Shown here piece by piece: positions 7,590 to 64,000 of a DNA stretch of 64,000 nt. Below the pieces are notes generated by a model that was given only the letters and a program-made list of their open reading frames with translations, ran no database searches and had not been told where the DNA came from. The translations under genes and the position numbers were made by a program. The stretch is from Nocardioides iriomotensis (lineage in GTDB: Bacteria; Actinomycetota; Actinomycetes; Propionibacteriales; Nocardioidaceae), in assembly GCF_004168035.1 (NCBI RefSeq), contig NZ_SDPU01000020.1:186001-250000 (forward strand), given 5' to 3'. Positions within the stretch are counted from its first letter, which is position 1; every line of letters starts with the position of its first letter.

Positions 7590-9104
7590 ATGCCACCCGT
7601 CACTTCCCCCGGGTCGGACCAGCTGCTCCGCGACCGCCACGCCCCCCACCACCCCACGACCGCCCGCCCGCACCCGCGCTTCGGCGACCGGGAGGCCGCG
7701 CGCGTGCGCTTCCGCCGCGCCCTCGCCCTCCTGCTGATGACCCTGGTCCTGCCCGGGTCCGCGCAGCTCGTCGCCGGCAACAAGCGGGTCGGCCGGGTCG
7801 CGCTGCGCGTCGTGCTGACGCTGCTTGCGGTCACCGTGTTCGTCGGGCTGGTCGGCTGGAAGTGGCACGGGGTCGTCTACTTCCTCGCCAGCAACACCGT
7901 CGCCCTCGGCTTCCTCCGCCTCCTGCTCGCCGCCCTCGCCGTCGGCTGGGCGGTGCTGTTCCTCGACGCCTGGCGGCTCGGGCAGCCGCTCGAGCTGTTG
8001 CGCAAGCAGCGGCTCGCCATGGTCGGTCTCAACGGCGTGCTCTGCTTCTCCGTCGCCGGTGGCCTGCTGTTCGCCTCGCACGTCGTCGCGGTCCAGCGCG
8101 GCTTCATCGCCACGATGTTCGGCAGCGGCACGGTCAGCGAGGCGACCCACGGCCGCTACAACGTGCTGCTGCTCGGCGGCGACTCCGGCCAGGACCGCTG
8201 GGGGCTGCGGCCGGACAGCATCTCGGTGGCCAGCATCGACCAGGAGACCGGGAAGGCGATCCTCTTCGGGCTGCCGCGGAACATGACGAACTTCCCGTTC
8301 CCCGAGGGCTCGGTCATGGCCGAGCAGTTCCCCGACGGCTACGACTGCGGACCCGAGTGCGAGCTCAACAGCCTCAGCACCTGGGCGCAGGACAACAAGG
8401 CGCTGTTCCCCGGCGAGGACAACCCCGGCGTCGCCGCCACCATCGAGGGCGTCGAGGGCATCACCGGCCTGAAGATCAACTACTACGCGATGGTGAACCT
8501 CGACGGGTTCCGCAGCCTGGTCCAGGCCGTCGGCGGCCTGGAGCTCAACGTCCGTGACCGCATCCCGATCGGCGGCGTGGGCGGCCCGGTCACCGGCTAC
8601 ATCGAACCCGGGGTCCAGCGGCTCAACGGCTTCCAGACCCTGTGGTTCGCGCGGTCGCGCGAGAGCGCCGACGACTACTCGCGGATGGCCCGCCAGAAGT
8701 GCGTGATGAACGCGATGCTCCAGCAGCTCTCGCCGCAGACGGTCATCACGAAGTTCGAGGACATCGCCTCGGCCAGCGAGCAGCTGATCACCACCGACCT
8801 GCCCGCCTCCGAGCTCGGCACGTTCGCGGAGCTCGCGATGAAGACCCGCGGCCAGCCGGTCTCCTCGGTGTCGTTCGTGCCACCGGCCATCAACACCGGC
8901 GCCCCGGACATCGAGAAGATCCACGCGATGGTCCAGCGCGCGATCGACAAGGCCGAGGGCAAGGCCACCACCACGAAGGCGGCGGCCGCCAAGAAGCAGA
9001 AGGGCTTCTCCCGGGCCGGCTCGTCCACCGTCGGCGGCTCGATCGGCAGCTACTCCGAGGGCTACGCCGCCAACAAGTCGAACGACCTGTCCTCGGCGTG
9101 CTGA
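7590..9104 (+). CDS. LCP family protein with four N-terminal membrane segments
   Basis: 504 aa. ATG 7590 is chosen for its AAGGG site; an in-frame ATG at 7545 lacks one. Four hydrophobic segments lie near residues 43-62, 68-90, 97-125 and 143-168, more than the single anchor of most LCP proteins. The extracellular LCP domain follows (about 187-400) with NVLLLGGDSGQDRWGLRPDS, GLPRNMTNFPFPEG and LQAVGGLELNV-type segments. The C-terminal 50 residues are Lys/Ala/Ser rich. It directly precedes the galactofuran operon and is the closest candidate for attaching that polymer to peptidoglycan. A triple-palindrome element starts 4 bp after its stop. Confidence 0.9.
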   Translation: MPPVTSPGSDQLLRDRHAPHHPTTARPHPRFGDREAARVRFRRALALLLMTLVLPGSAQLVAGNKRVGRVALRVVLTLLAVTVFVGLVGWKWHGVVYFLASNTVALGFLRLLLAALAVGWAVLFLDAWRLGQPLELLRKQRLAMVGLNGVLCFSVAGGLLFASHVVAVQRGFIATMFGSGTVSEATHGRYNVLLLGGDSGQDRWGLRPDSISVASIDQETGKAILFGLPRNMTNFPFPEGSVMAEQFPDGYDCGPECELNSLSTWAQDNKALFPGEDNPGVAATIEGVEGITGLKINYYAMVNLDGFRSLVQAVGGLELNVRDRIPIGGVGGPVTGYIEPGVQRLNGFQTLWFARSRESADDYSRMARQKCVMNAMLQQLSPQTVITKFEDIASASEQLITTDLPASELGTFAELAMKTRGQPVSSVSFVPPAINTGAPDIEKIHAMVQRAIDKAEGKATTTKAAAAKKQKGFSRAGSSTVGGSIGSYSEGYAANKSNDLSSAC

Positions 9105-9107
9105 CCC

Positions 9108-9169
9108 CTACCGATATCGGTAGCCCGACCGTGACCCACCGGTCACTCCCGGACTACCGACATCGGTAG
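9108..9169. repeat. triple-palindrome composite element, copy A
   Basis: Three palindromes in a row: CTACCGATATCGGTAG (9108-9123), GTGACC-CACC-GGTCAC (9131-9146) and CTACCGACATCGGTAG (9154-9169, one central mismatch). Their centres are at 9115.5, 9138.5 and 9161.5, exactly 23 bp apart. The same geometry and sequence recur at 62903-62963. The right arm overlaps the TAGGGT -10 box of the next gene. It may be an operator array or a repeated extragenic palindrome; I do not recognise a known factor site. Confidence 0.85.
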
Positions 9170-9172
9170 GGT
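9167..9172 (+). promoter_or_regulatory. -10 element TAGGGT overlapping the palindrome arm
   Basis: It ends 6 nt before the GTG start at 9179. Its first three bases are the last three of the third palindrome of copy A, so a protein bound there would cover the promoter of the galactofuran operon. Confidence 0.55.
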
Positions 9173-9178
9173 CGCCGG

Positions 9179-11005
9179 GTGGACACCCGGGTCGTCGCTG
9201 TCGTCGTGACGTGGAACCGGCGGGACCTCCTCGAGGAGTCGCTGGCCGCGCTCGACGCCCAGTCGCACCCCCCGGCGCGGATCGTGGTGGTCGACAACGC
9301 GAGCACCGACGGTACGACCGACTGGCTCGCCGTCGAGGCCAAGGCACACGAGCGCTGGGACGTCGTGACGCTGCGCAGCAACACCGGCGGCGCCGGTGGT
9401 TTCGCGGTCGGCCTGGAGCAGGCGCTCACGCACGAGCCCGACCTGGTCTGGATGCTCGACGACGACACCATCCCCACCCGCACCGCCGCCGCCGAGCTCG
9501 TCGCCGCGTGGACGTCGTACTCAGCGGTCCGGCGGCCGGCCGTCCTCGCCAGCCGGGTGGTCTGGACCGACGGGCGCGACCACCCGATGAACACGCCGCG
9601 CGCCAAGCCCGGCGCCACCCGCGCCGAGCGCCACGCCGCCGCGGCCATCGGCTGCGTGCCGATCCGCTCGGCGTCGTTCGTCTCGATCATGTGCGACGCG
9701 CAGGTCGTGCGCGACCGCGGGCTGCCGGTCGCCGACTACTTCCTCTGGAACGACGACTTCGAGTACTCCACGCGCCTGATCCGCGGCAACGTCGGCCTCT
9801 CCGTCCCCGCCAGCGTCGTCGAGCACAAGACGAAGGTGTTCGGCTCGACCGACGCCGACCCGGGGGAGCGGTTCTTCTACGAGGTCCGCAACAAGGCCTG
9901 GATGTTCACCCGCAGCCGCTCGCTGTCACTCGCCGAGAAGGCCGTGTACGGCGCCGCCACCCTGCGCCGCTGGGCCCGCACGTTCGCGGCCTCGTCGGAC
10001 CGGGCCGTGCTGCGCCGCGGGCTGCTGCGCGGCCTCCGCACCGGCCTGCTCACCGCGCCGAGGCCCAACGACGCCGTGCTCGCACCGGCGGGCTGGTCCC
10101 GCGAGACCCGCGCCGACGCGCCGCGGGTGCTGCCGCCCGGACAGCCGTTCTCGCTGCTGGTCTCGACCTACTGGAACGACGACCCGGGCTACCTGCGTGA
10201 GGCGTTCCACAGCAGCGTGCAGCAGCAGTTCCGGCGTCCCGGGGAGGTCGTGCTCGTGCAGGACGGCCCGGTGCCGCCCGAGCTGGCCGCCGAGATCGCG
10301 CACCTGGCCGAGACCAGCCCGGTCCCGGTGCGGCACGTGGTGATCGACGCCAACCTCGGCCTCGGACCCGCGCTCGACCGCGGCCTCCAGGCCTGCCGGC
10401 ACGAGATCGTCGCGCGCATGGACGCCGACGACGTCAGCGTGCCCGACCGGTTCGTCAAGCAGCTCCCGGTGATCGAGGCCGGGGCCGACATCGTCGGCTC
10501 GGGACTCACCGAGTTCGGCGAGCACGTCGGCGACGTCGTCGGCCGCCGTACGCCGCCCACCGACCCCGACGAGATCCGCCGCGTGATCAGGTTCCGCGAC
10601 CCGTTCAACCACCCGACGGTGGTCTACCGCAAGTCGGCGGTGCAGGCGGCCGGCGGCTACACCGACATGGCGCTGATGGAGGACTATCTCCTCTTCACGC
10701 GTATGGTCGACGGCGGCGCGCGCCCGGCGAACCTCGCCGAGCCCCTCGTGAACTACCGCGTGGGGGCCGGCGCCTACGCGCGCCGGGGCGGCACCGGGCT
10801 GCTGAGGTCCGAGCTCGCCCTGCAGCGGCGGTTCCGCGACCTGGGCATCACCACGCGTCGGCAGTACGCGCGGAACGTCCTGGTCCGGGGCGGCTACCGC
10901 CTGGTGCCGGAGGCCGTGCGGAAGACGGCGTACCGCGCCCTGATCGCCAACCGTGGTGGGGATCACGCGGAGGGTGAGGCGGCCCACGGGAACAAGGAAC
11001 AGTGA
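9179..11005 (+). CDS. two-domain glycosyltransferase family 2 protein (GlfT1-like plus second GT2)
   Basis: 608 aa, GTG start 9179, leaderless. Residues 1-300 form a GT2 domain like the galactan-initiating transferase GlfT1: VVVTWNRRDLLEESL, VVVDNASTDGT, NTGGAGGFAVGLEQAL and the metal-binding LVWMLDDDTIP. Residues about 325-560 form a second GT2 domain with LLVSTYWNDDPGYL, VLVQDGPVPPEL and RMDADDVSVPDRF (near residue 413). The fusion may perform two successive sugar additions on the lipid carrier. It opens the run glf - glfT2 - wzm - wzt, which supports a role in starting a galactofuranan on decaprenyl or undecaprenyl phosphate; the acceptor is unknown. Confidence 0.85.
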   Translation: MDTRVVAVVVTWNRRDLLEESLAALDAQSHPPARIVVVDNASTDGTTDWLAVEAKAHERWDVVTLRSNTGGAGGFAVGLEQALTHEPDLVWMLDDDTIPTRTAAAELVAAWTSYSAVRRPAVLASRVVWTDGRDHPMNTPRAKPGATRAERHAAAAIGCVPIRSASFVSIMCDAQVVRDRGLPVADYFLWNDDFEYSTRLIRGNVGLSVPASVVEHKTKVFGSTDADPGERFFYEVRNKAWMFTRSRSLSLAEKAVYGAATLRRWARTFAASSDRAVLRRGLLRGLRTGLLTAPRPNDAVLAPAGWSRETRADAPRVLPPGQPFSLLVSTYWNDDPGYLREAFHSSVQQQFRRPGEVVLVQDGPVPPELAAEIAHLAETSPVPVRHVVIDANLGLGPALDRGLQACRHEIVARMDADDVSVPDRFVKQLPVIEAGADIVGSGLTEFGEHVGDVVGRRTPPTDPDEIRRVIRFRDPFNHPTVVYRKSAVQAAGGYTDMALMEDYLLFTRMVDGGARPANLAEPLVNYRVGAGAYARRGGTGLLRSELALQRRFRDLGITTRRQYARNVLVRGGYRLVPEAVRKTAYRALIANRGGDHAEGEAAHGNKEQ

Positions 11006-41245: not shown

Positions 41246-41566
41246 ATGGAGTCCGTCCGGGTCCGTGGTTGCGCCGGCGGACCGGTGAGCACTCGCCCAC
41301 CGGAGAGCCACCGGCTAGCCGATGCCAGTCGCAGGCGAAACGGTCCACGTAAGGCGCGTCCGGACGTTCTCGGCAGCCGGTCGTCATCGACCGGTCGCCG
41401 CGAGTCCTCCGGCCGTCGATCACGGTGCGGCTTAGAGGTAAGTCCTGCCCTCCTCCTGACGTCAGACACGTCGGGGTCGGAGGAGAAGGCCAGTAGTGGC
41501 AGCGAGCTGCGAGAGCCTCAGCAGGCGGTTGTGGGGTCGAAGACCAGGTCGGCCGGACGGACTCCT
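41246..41566 (+). ncRNA. candidate raiA-type structured noncoding RNA
   Basis: The 535-bp comF-hpf gap has no credible gene. GGAGTCCGTCCGG (41248-41260) is an exact complement of CCGGACGGACTCC (41553-41565), a 13-bp helix that closes a domain of about 320 nt starting at the predicted transcription start. Inside are CCGGTG/CACCGG (41282-41287 with 41298-41303) and CCGGTCG-TCAT-CGACCGG (41377-41394). The raiA motif is a known large RNA found upstream of hpf/raiA and near comF genes in Firmicutes and Actinobacteria, so the location fits. I could not check the motif's conserved core, and known examples are shorter. Confidence 0.55.
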
Positions 41567-61258: not shown

Positions 61259-62893
<1,635 letters not shown>

Positions 62894-62902
62894 CCCCCGA
62901 CA

Positions 62903-62963
62903 TACCGATATCGGTAGTCGCAGGGTGACCCCGGGGTCACTCCTGGACTACCGATATCGGTAG
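62903..62963. repeat. triple-palindrome composite element, copy B
   Basis: TACCGATATCGGTA (62903-62916), GTGACC-CCGG-GGTCAC (62925-62940) and CTACCGATATCGGTAG (62948-62963). Centres are at 62909.5, 62932.5 and 62955.5, exactly 23 bp apart as in copy A. The last 29 bases match copy A at 27 positions. It lies between the convergent pruA and Old Yellow Enzyme genes, where no promoter is expected, so a boundary, terminator or repeat-family role is possible. Confidence 0.85.
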
Positions 62964-62980: not shown

Positions 62981-64000
62981 TCAGGCGCTGAGCGCCGGGT
63001 AGTCCGTGTAGCCGCGGTGGTCGCCGCCGTAGAAGGTCGCCGGGTCGGGCTCGTTGAGCTCGGCGTCGAGCTCCCAGCGGCGCGGCAGGTCGGGGTTGGC
63101 CAGGAACTGGCGGCCGACCGCGACGGCGTCGGCGAGGCCGAGGTCGAGCATCTGCTGCGCGCTCTCCTTCGACGTCATGTTGGCGAAGCCGTCGTTGGCG
63201 ACCAGCGTGCCGCCGAAGATCCCGCGCAGCCGCTTGACGAGGTCCTCGCGGGGGTCGTTGTGCACCGACAGGTACGCGATGCCGAGCGGGGCGATCCCCT
63301 CGACGAGCGCGGAGTACGTCGCCTCGAGGTCGTCGGCGTCGTCCTCGACGGCACCGTTCGCGCCGTTGCCGGGGGAGATGCGCAGGCCGACCTTGTCGGG
63401 GCCGATCGCCTCGGCGACCGCGGTGACGACCTCGATCGCGAAGCGGGCGCGGGCGGCGGGGCTGCCGCCGTACCCGTCGGTCCGCACGTTGGTGCTGGGC
63501 GCGAGGAACTGGTGGATCAGGTAGCCGTTGGCGCCGTGCACCTCGACCCCGTCGAGCCCGGCGGCGACGGCGTTGCGCGCGGCCTGGGCGAACTCCTCGA
63601 CCACGCCGGGGATCTCCTCGGTGGCGAGCTCGCGGGGGAGGGCCATCGGCTGCATGCCGTGGGCGGTGAACATCTGGCCGGGCGCCTGCACCGCGCTGGG
63701 CGCGACGGTCTCGAGGCCGCCCTTGTTGTCGGGGTGCGCGACGCGGCCGGCGTGCATGATCTGGGCGACGATGCGTCCGTCGCGGGCGTGCACGGCGTCG
63801 GCGACGCGGCGCCAGCCCTCGACCTGCTCGTCGGTGTGGAGGCCGGGCGTGGTCAGGTAGCCCTGGCCGACGGCGCTGGGCTGGGTGCCCTCGGTGACGA
63901 TGAGGGCCGCGGACGCGCGCTGGGCGTAGTACTCCGCGGTGAGCTCGGTCGGCACCATGCCCTCCGCGGCGCGGGAGCGGGTCATCGGCGCGAGCAGGAT
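62981..64000 (-). CDS. Old Yellow Enzyme-family alkene reductase (partial, 5' end cut)
   Basis: 340 codons are visible; the frame is open to base 64000, reading ILLAPMTRSRAAEGMVPTEL, so only the first 20 or so residues are missing. The flavin TIM barrel has IVTEGTQPSAVGQGYLTTPG, catalytic His and Asn in DGVEVHGANGYLIHQFLAPS, and phosphate-binding LADAVAVGRQFLANPDLPRR. Such enzymes use NAD(P)H and FMN to reduce activated alkenes or nitro-compounds. It converges on pruA across the palindrome element. Confidence 0.92.
   Translation of the reverse strand: MLLAPMTRSRAAEGMVPTELTAEYYAQRASAALIVTEGTQPSAVGQGYLTTPGLHTDEQVEGWRRVADAVHARDGRIVAQIMHAGRVAHPDNKGGLETVAPSAVQAPGQMFTAHGMQPMALPRELATEEIPGVVEEFAQAARNAVAAGLDGVEVHGANGYLIHQFLAPSTNVRTDGYGGSPAARARFAIEVVTAVAEAIGPDKVGLRISPGNGANGAVEDDADDLEATYSALVEGIAPLGIAYLSVHNDPREDLVKRLRGIFGGTLVANDGFANMTSKESAQQMLDLGLADAVAVGRQFLANPDLPRRWELDAELNEPDPATFYGGDHRGYTDYPALSA

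Follow-up and report, generated by a model that had tools for sequence, protein, structure and literature searches.

What is the composite of three palindromes that stands twice in the window, i.e., the whole 64-kb stretch of DNA analyzed here, and what does it do there? A preliminary description of this DNA had pointed out two copies, each with three palindromes at an exact 23-bp spacing, and both were found where it had placed them (Table 1). Each copy has outer palindromes of the form TACCGA(T/C)ATCGGTA and a middle palindrome GTGACC-N4-GGTCAC, and the spacing between the centers is 23 + 23 bp in both (9115.5, 9138.5, and 9161.5 in copy 1; 62909.5, 62932.5, and 62955.5 in copy 2). Four outer sites were found in the window at up to 3 mismatches against a mean of 0.39 in shuffled sequences, where 1 of the 100 shuffles reached four. 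The middle palindrome alone, at up to 2 mismatches, shows no excess over chance in the window (8 found vs. 7.62 expected), and its only exact occurrences there are the two in the copies themselves.

Table 1. Positions in the window of the two composites, their palindromes, and the neighboring genes.
Feature	Position	Strand	Basis
Copy 1, whole composite	9108..9169	.	sequence patterns, gene-context scoring
Copy 1, left outer palindrome TACCGATATCGGTA	9109..9122	.	palindrome search
Copy 1, middle palindrome GTGACC-CACC-GGTCAC	9131..9146	.	palindrome search
Copy 1, right outer palindrome TACCGACATCGGTA, one mismatch	9155..9168	.	palindrome search
Copy 2, whole composite	62902..62963	.	sequence patterns, gene-context scoring
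Copy 2, left outer palindrome TACCGATATCGGTA	62903..62916	.	palindrome search
Copy 2, middle palindrome GTGACC-CCGG-GGTCAC	62925..62940	.	palindrome search
Copy 2, right outer palindrome TACCGATATCGGTA	62949..62962	.	palindrome search
Stop codon of LytR-CpsA-Psr family gene, 3′ end facing copy 1	9102..9104	+	Pfam PF03816
-10-like hexamer TAGGGT before GTG start at 9179	9167..9172	+	by eye
Glycosyltransferase gene (GT2-type matches), first after copy 1	9179..11005	+	profile matches
Aldehyde dehydrogenase family gene, stop 8 bases before copy 2	61259..62893	+	profile matches
NADH:flavin oxidoreductase family gene after copy 2, convergent with the aldehyde dehydrogenase family gene	62981..63985	-	profile matches

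The two copies belong to a much larger set. A genome-wide search for the composite, proposed as a check in the preliminary description, found 27 copies of the 62-base element (outer TACCGATATCGGTA, middle GTGACC-N4-GGTCAC, 23 + 23 bp pitch) in the window's own genome, which is labeled G000 below; G003, G072, and similar labels stand for relatives. Taken singly, with up to 2 mismatches allowed, the outer palindrome has 60 matches in this genome against 1 for the reversed control. Pairs of it at a 46-bp pitch occur at 28 places, namely the 27 composites and one overlap artefact at C13:248858 that was left out of the composite count, against 0 for the reversed-pattern control. This outer pitch was built into the search and is thus not itself a finding of it; the middle palindrome, though absent from the search pattern, stands midway in 27/27 composites, exact in 24 and altered in those at C16:144309, C20:31736, and C24:24618. 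Among the matches listed, only five outer sites are without a partner at 46 bp, three of them inside genes and two being partial copies (C28:224436 and C29:401318). The genome has 26 exact middle palindromes, 24 within composites and two (C13:332952 and C21:208365) without outer palindromes. The consensus of the 27 copies, ..ACCGAtATCGGTaG.cc....GTGACCCa.gGGTCAC.c...GaCtACCGAtaTCGGTa., has two variable linkers; the left linker had been described as variable, and the right one varies as well once all 27 copies are compared. A few copies read CGGTCGTC, and these bases are paired.

The copies sit at the ends of genes. With gene calls from our own simple codon-usage caller, in which the starts are uncertain, 13 copies lie between convergent genes, 14 between codirectional ones, and none between divergent genes or inside a gene. 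All 27 are at called gene 3′ ends, with at least one gene ending into each, and 4/27 overlap the called gene end by 16 to 39 bases. In the fetched regions, the other 192 gene pairs split into 24 convergent, 132 codirectional, and 36 divergent ones; against this background, convergent sites are in excess (p=6.5e-6) and divergent ones are lacking (p=0.0056). The median distance between the palindrome core and the nearest facing stop codon is 2 nt (27 copies, with values from -25 to 32), and in some copies the stop is inside the element. Profile scans covered 20 of the 54 flanking genes and gave Pfam matches for 19 of them at the cut-off used; they are a mix of ordinary genes.

In the window, copy 1 starts three bases past the stop of the LytR-CpsA-Psr family gene, and copy 2 does lie between two convergent genes, as had been described, these being the aldehyde dehydrogenase and flavin oxidoreductase family genes. 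Copy 1 had also been said to overlap a promoter. It does abut the -10-like hexamer TAGGGT and shares with it the bases TAG, which are the last three of the copy and the first three of the hexamer, but it does not contain the hexamer. In the region corresponding to window positions 9167–9181, TAGGGT is found in six of seven genus genomes and TACGGT in G006. Since this -10-like hexamer is kept across the genus so close to a GTG start, only a few bases before the glycosyltransferase gene, it suggests a leaderless promoter and leaderless transcription of that gene.

The RNA of either strand is predicted to fold into one long stem, with energies from -27.1 to -52.3 kcal/mol and a median of -41.6 (both strands). 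Over the 27 copies, 0.88 of the cells for the outer 16 bases are paired across the dyad. A GC-rich stem-loop right after a stop codon is what one expects of a classical intrinsic terminator, but the U-rich tract is missing: fewer than 3 T are present in the 8 bases after the element on 35/40 facing sides, and 3 or 4 on the other 5. The composite is therefore not a textbook intrinsic terminator, and if the copies are terminators, they belong with the U-poor class. The U-poor (“I-shaped”) terminators of GC-rich bacteria are likewise strong stem-loops right after genes and without a U-tract, and highly structured, U-lacking transcript ends are described in an account of Streptomyces clavuligerus (PMC8269248). 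Unlike them, the composite, as a candidate terminator, is a single sequence that recurs at 27 places and keeps the same inner layout.

We consider it probable that the composite is a REP-like family of extragenic palindromes without a RAYT, most likely a bidirectional 3′-end element that serves as a U-poor terminator, as protection of mRNA 3′ ends, or both. A family of extragenic palindromes was one of two possibilities raised in the preliminary description, and it is the one that has gained ground, with 27 copies at called gene 3′ ends, none wholly in a gene, and a largely lineage-specific presence. In the broad sense of REP, both the dispersed palindromic copies and the extragenic 3′-end placement fit. 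As we picture it, dispersed extragenic inverted repeats would have spread in this lineage and settled at gene 3′ ends; when transcribed from either side, a copy would fold into one long hairpin with a GTGACC tip, and this hairpin would act symmetrically, as a U-poor terminator and/or as a block that protects the mRNA 3′ ends. The function of the composite and its mode of spread, including termination and an origin of the copies by duplication and not by repeated independent origin, are what we infer from these observations. The placement by stop codons could, on the other hand, reflect only where insertions do no harm.

The closeness of the stop codons, which in some copies are even inside the element, would equally suit a hairpin that mainly modulates translation termination or mRNA decay and has little effect on transcription, and an account of E. 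coli REPs says that they can stall ribosomes shortly before the stop codon (PMC12306157). We regard this as unlikely, though worth keeping in mind, since the convergent excess points to a two-sided role in separating transcripts.

The distribution of the composite among relatives is narrow. The outer pair, at up to 2 mismatches, is absent from 6/6 other genomes of the same genus (two of which are only 81 and 86 percent complete). Among 341 genomes of the family, 12 have a match: G000, G072 with one true single copy, and ten others with one two-mismatch match each, which by eye are without the middle palindrome and were set aside; the reversed control matches in 2/341. A scan of genome contig records with the exact pattern, which may omit records of the own or near genomes, gave one match, in an Aeromicrobium MAG record at the position of the G072 copy. 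As to conservation in related genomes, which the preliminary description had put forward as a check, the composite version itself is missing from the six same-genus genomes, but G003, which is among these six, has cousins of it.

These cousins, at least 27 of them by a looser pattern, have the same middle palindrome, different arms, and a similar pitch, which is 23 + 23 in 27/33 units and one base shorter in 6 (the counting pattern set a left linker of 10 bases and admitted right linkers of 9 to 11). In a partial sample of 29 G003 loci, 6 are convergent, 20 codirectional, 0 divergent, and 3 undecided at contig ends, and two middle palindromes about 45 bp apart are found in 5/29. The 23-bp pitch also recurs in G072 with different linkers. 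The earlier claim that the geometry is under selection is only partly supported by this recurrence with other linkers, in G072 and in 27/33 G003 units, as recent copying would also produce an exact spacing.

The gene junctions were also compared. Where a relative keeps both flanks, as is so for eight junctions, the element is missing from it, and some of these junctions hold unrelated hairpins. Both genes at the copy 1 junction are kept in five relatives (G001, G002, G003, G004, and G006), with the element in 0/5. The convergent gene pair around copy 2 is present in G001 and G002, where unrelated hairpins, judged by eye, stand between the two genes; this fits the replacement of one 3′-end hairpin by another. 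Ten further junctions were queried, seven with readable relatives; six of these had both flanks in at least one relative, and the element was found in 0/6. The 27 own loci and the 29 of G003 have one complete junction in common, which lies at an acyl carrier protein gene and has a copy in both species (L037 and L085), and they agree at another on a single side (L030 and L084). It is therefore possible that a few copies are old or that there are hot spots, and most of the compared loci are lineage-specific. L037 and L085 each have the arm type of their own species, as if an old copy had changed arms. L143, L146, and L164 (in G001, G006, and G003, respectively) hold a hairpin of another kind, whose arms are of the CTCCCCATGG...CCATGGGGAG type and which has a TGCAGGA-type stretch nearby; it may represent a further family of extragenic palindromes in the genus.

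Covariation was tested across the dyad. The G000 linkers show none (0.58 paired vs. 0.62 re-paired, p=0.96), and neither do the outer palindromes of G003 (p=0.71); in these two cases there is no sign of selection for a single perfect long stem. The linkers of G003 do covary across the dyad (0.719 paired vs. 0.628 re-paired; 0/2000 permutations, 27 units). Paired arm changes like those in G003 may reflect selection on the stem, and template switching during replication would be another possible cause; it is described as able to perfect stems, giving paired arm changes in one event (PMC8794818). This template-switch repair of quasi-palindromes could explain the G003 linkers, but it is a mutation mechanism and not a sequence family, and no such pairing is present in G000. 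Half-arms that reassort freely among the copies were also considered, as the same 7-base linker occurs with several partners. With 300 permutations and three statistics, the G000 copies gave p values of 0.007, 0.047, and 0.067 for the linkers and 0.000, 0.007, and 0.003 with the outer variants, by which the halves are linked; the values for G003 were 0.97, 0.007, and 0.007 for all 27 units and 0.57, 0.13, and 0.38 for the 16 asymmetric ones. The outcome is mixed, and no conclusion was rested on this test.

The other possibility raised in the preliminary description was an array to which one or two dimeric factors would bind cooperatively. In this case, a dimeric factor would bind the outer sites and the same or another factor the middle one, about 2.2 helical turns apart, and nearby genes would be regulated. 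Several features fit: the pitch is fixed at 23 bp and is repeated in G072 and most G003 units, the palindromes are near-invariant with freer linkers between them, and copy 1 adjoins the -10-like box of the gene that follows it. However, one would look for an operator upstream of regulated promoters, and apart from the one promoter-like box that copy 1 abuts, the copies are not placed in this way: 0/27 are between divergent genes, and into each of the 27 at least one gene ends. Neither palindrome was found standing free as an operator, given that 24/26 exact middle palindromes are in composites and that the unpaired outer sites among the matches listed are those in genes or partial copies. Moreover, the neighbors are a mix of ordinary genes (20/54 flanking genes scanned), and the relatives keep the same genes with the sites absent at the junctions examined. 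Because no copy is upstream-only and neither palindrome is found free, we give a regulatory array a low probability.

It is also quite improbable, in our judgment, that the copies are MITEs, i.e., non-autonomous elements with terminal inverted repeats that depended on a DDE transposase now lost or located elsewhere. The terminal inverted repeats are there, as part of the dyad symmetry, and so are the dispersal and the largely lineage-specific presence, but no target-site duplication was detected (direct repeats at the ends have a mean of 2.04 vs. 2.43 for mismatched flanks, p=0.98). No transposase was found among the 20 of 54 flanking genes scanned with Pfam (the whole genome was covered for PF01797 only), and, at the limits used, a phage search with copy 1 and a plasmid search with copy 2 gave no match. 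The least credible identity is a REP or REPIN of the GTAG type, mobilized by a RAYT (TnpA-REP) transposase, which would share the palindromic, dispersed, extragenic copies at gene 3′ ends and the GTAG that ends most outer palindromes; we do not file the composite there because the RAYT profile (Y1_Tnp, PF01797) has no match in any of 10 genomes, G000 and G003 included, with 5/14 control genomes matching, E. coli among them, and because the GTAG is base-paired with CTAC inside the palindrome CTACCG...CGGTAG, whereas the published REP tag, GTAG or CGTC at the foot of the hairpin, is described as not involved in pairing (PMC3733652).

The likeness to the known REPs is nevertheless worth spelling out. 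REPs of the GTAG superfamily with RAYTs (REP/BIME/REPIN) are described as short palindromic repeats in many copies, mostly intergenic and placed next to the 3′ ends of convergent and unidirectional (codirectional) ORFs (PMC3733652), much like the composite, which differs in having no RAYT match, a paired GTAG, three palindromes at a 23-bp pitch, and 27 copies found. The CGTC-tagged REPs are likewise palindromic, dispersed, and not tied to transposase genes, but they have stems of 8-9 bp and an unpaired CGTC, whereas the CGGTCGTC copies of the composite are paired; they are reported from Proteobacteria, Chlorobi, Bacteroidetes, Spirochaetes, and Thermotogae (PMC3733652). In Rfam, at gathering scores, no family in the window matches the element. 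Seven weak matches to microRNAs, with E values between 0.0046 and 0.58 and scores that all fall far short of the gathering cut-offs, were taken as chance, given that the element is a long stem. The sole match in the window at gathering score is a raiA RNA at 41252–41561 on the + strand (RF03072, 128.5 bits). Titles and the opening parts of abstracts in the literature contain no description of the composite that we found, and the string ACCGATATCGGT is listed for two papers, both on other subjects.

Simpler relatives of the middle palindrome extend beyond the composite. The exact tip GTGACCCNNGGGTCAC is present in 37/341 family genomes, with 22 occurrences in each of G000 and G003 and no more than 7 in any other. 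Its reversed control is present in 7/341 (count from the table); two of these genomes have it in large numbers (34 and 13 copies), so that the control is itself a repeat there. In these two, G249 (34 places) and G091 (13), the repeated control sequence CACTGGGNNCCCAGTG is perhaps another species-specific palindrome family. G317, G230, G125, G271, and others have long simple hairpins with the GTGACC tip and without outer palindromes. Twenty of the simple hairpins were scored, with a codon model trained on mixed genomes and with L128 and L129 (tip, no arms) excluded; 7 are convergent and 9 codirectional, one is divergent, and 3 were called within genes. Across the order, with up to 2 mismatches allowed, 9/245 genomes match the composite pattern and 1 genome matches the control, and only G000 has more than 3 matches; those of G216, G245, G319, and G446 are simple long hairpins, and the single matches of the other four genomes were taken as chance. 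We would tentatively suggest, as a possibility more doubtful than not, that the Nocardioidaceae have a RAYT-independent class of hairpins in which the GTGACC-N4-GGTCAC tip is constant across genera and the arms turn over by species, with at least two species of one genus having added outer palindromes at a 23-bp pitch, and that a putative factor recognizes the tip for spread or at transcript ends.

If the composite is indeed a REP-like element of gene 3′ ends, then such elements at stop codons would also arise in lineages where no RAYT is found, and the same gene junctions in related species could hold different hairpins. The spread and replacement of extragenic hairpins would then be directly testable within a small genus, and the 27 natural copies would be a ready set for measuring bidirectional terminators in a GC-rich host.
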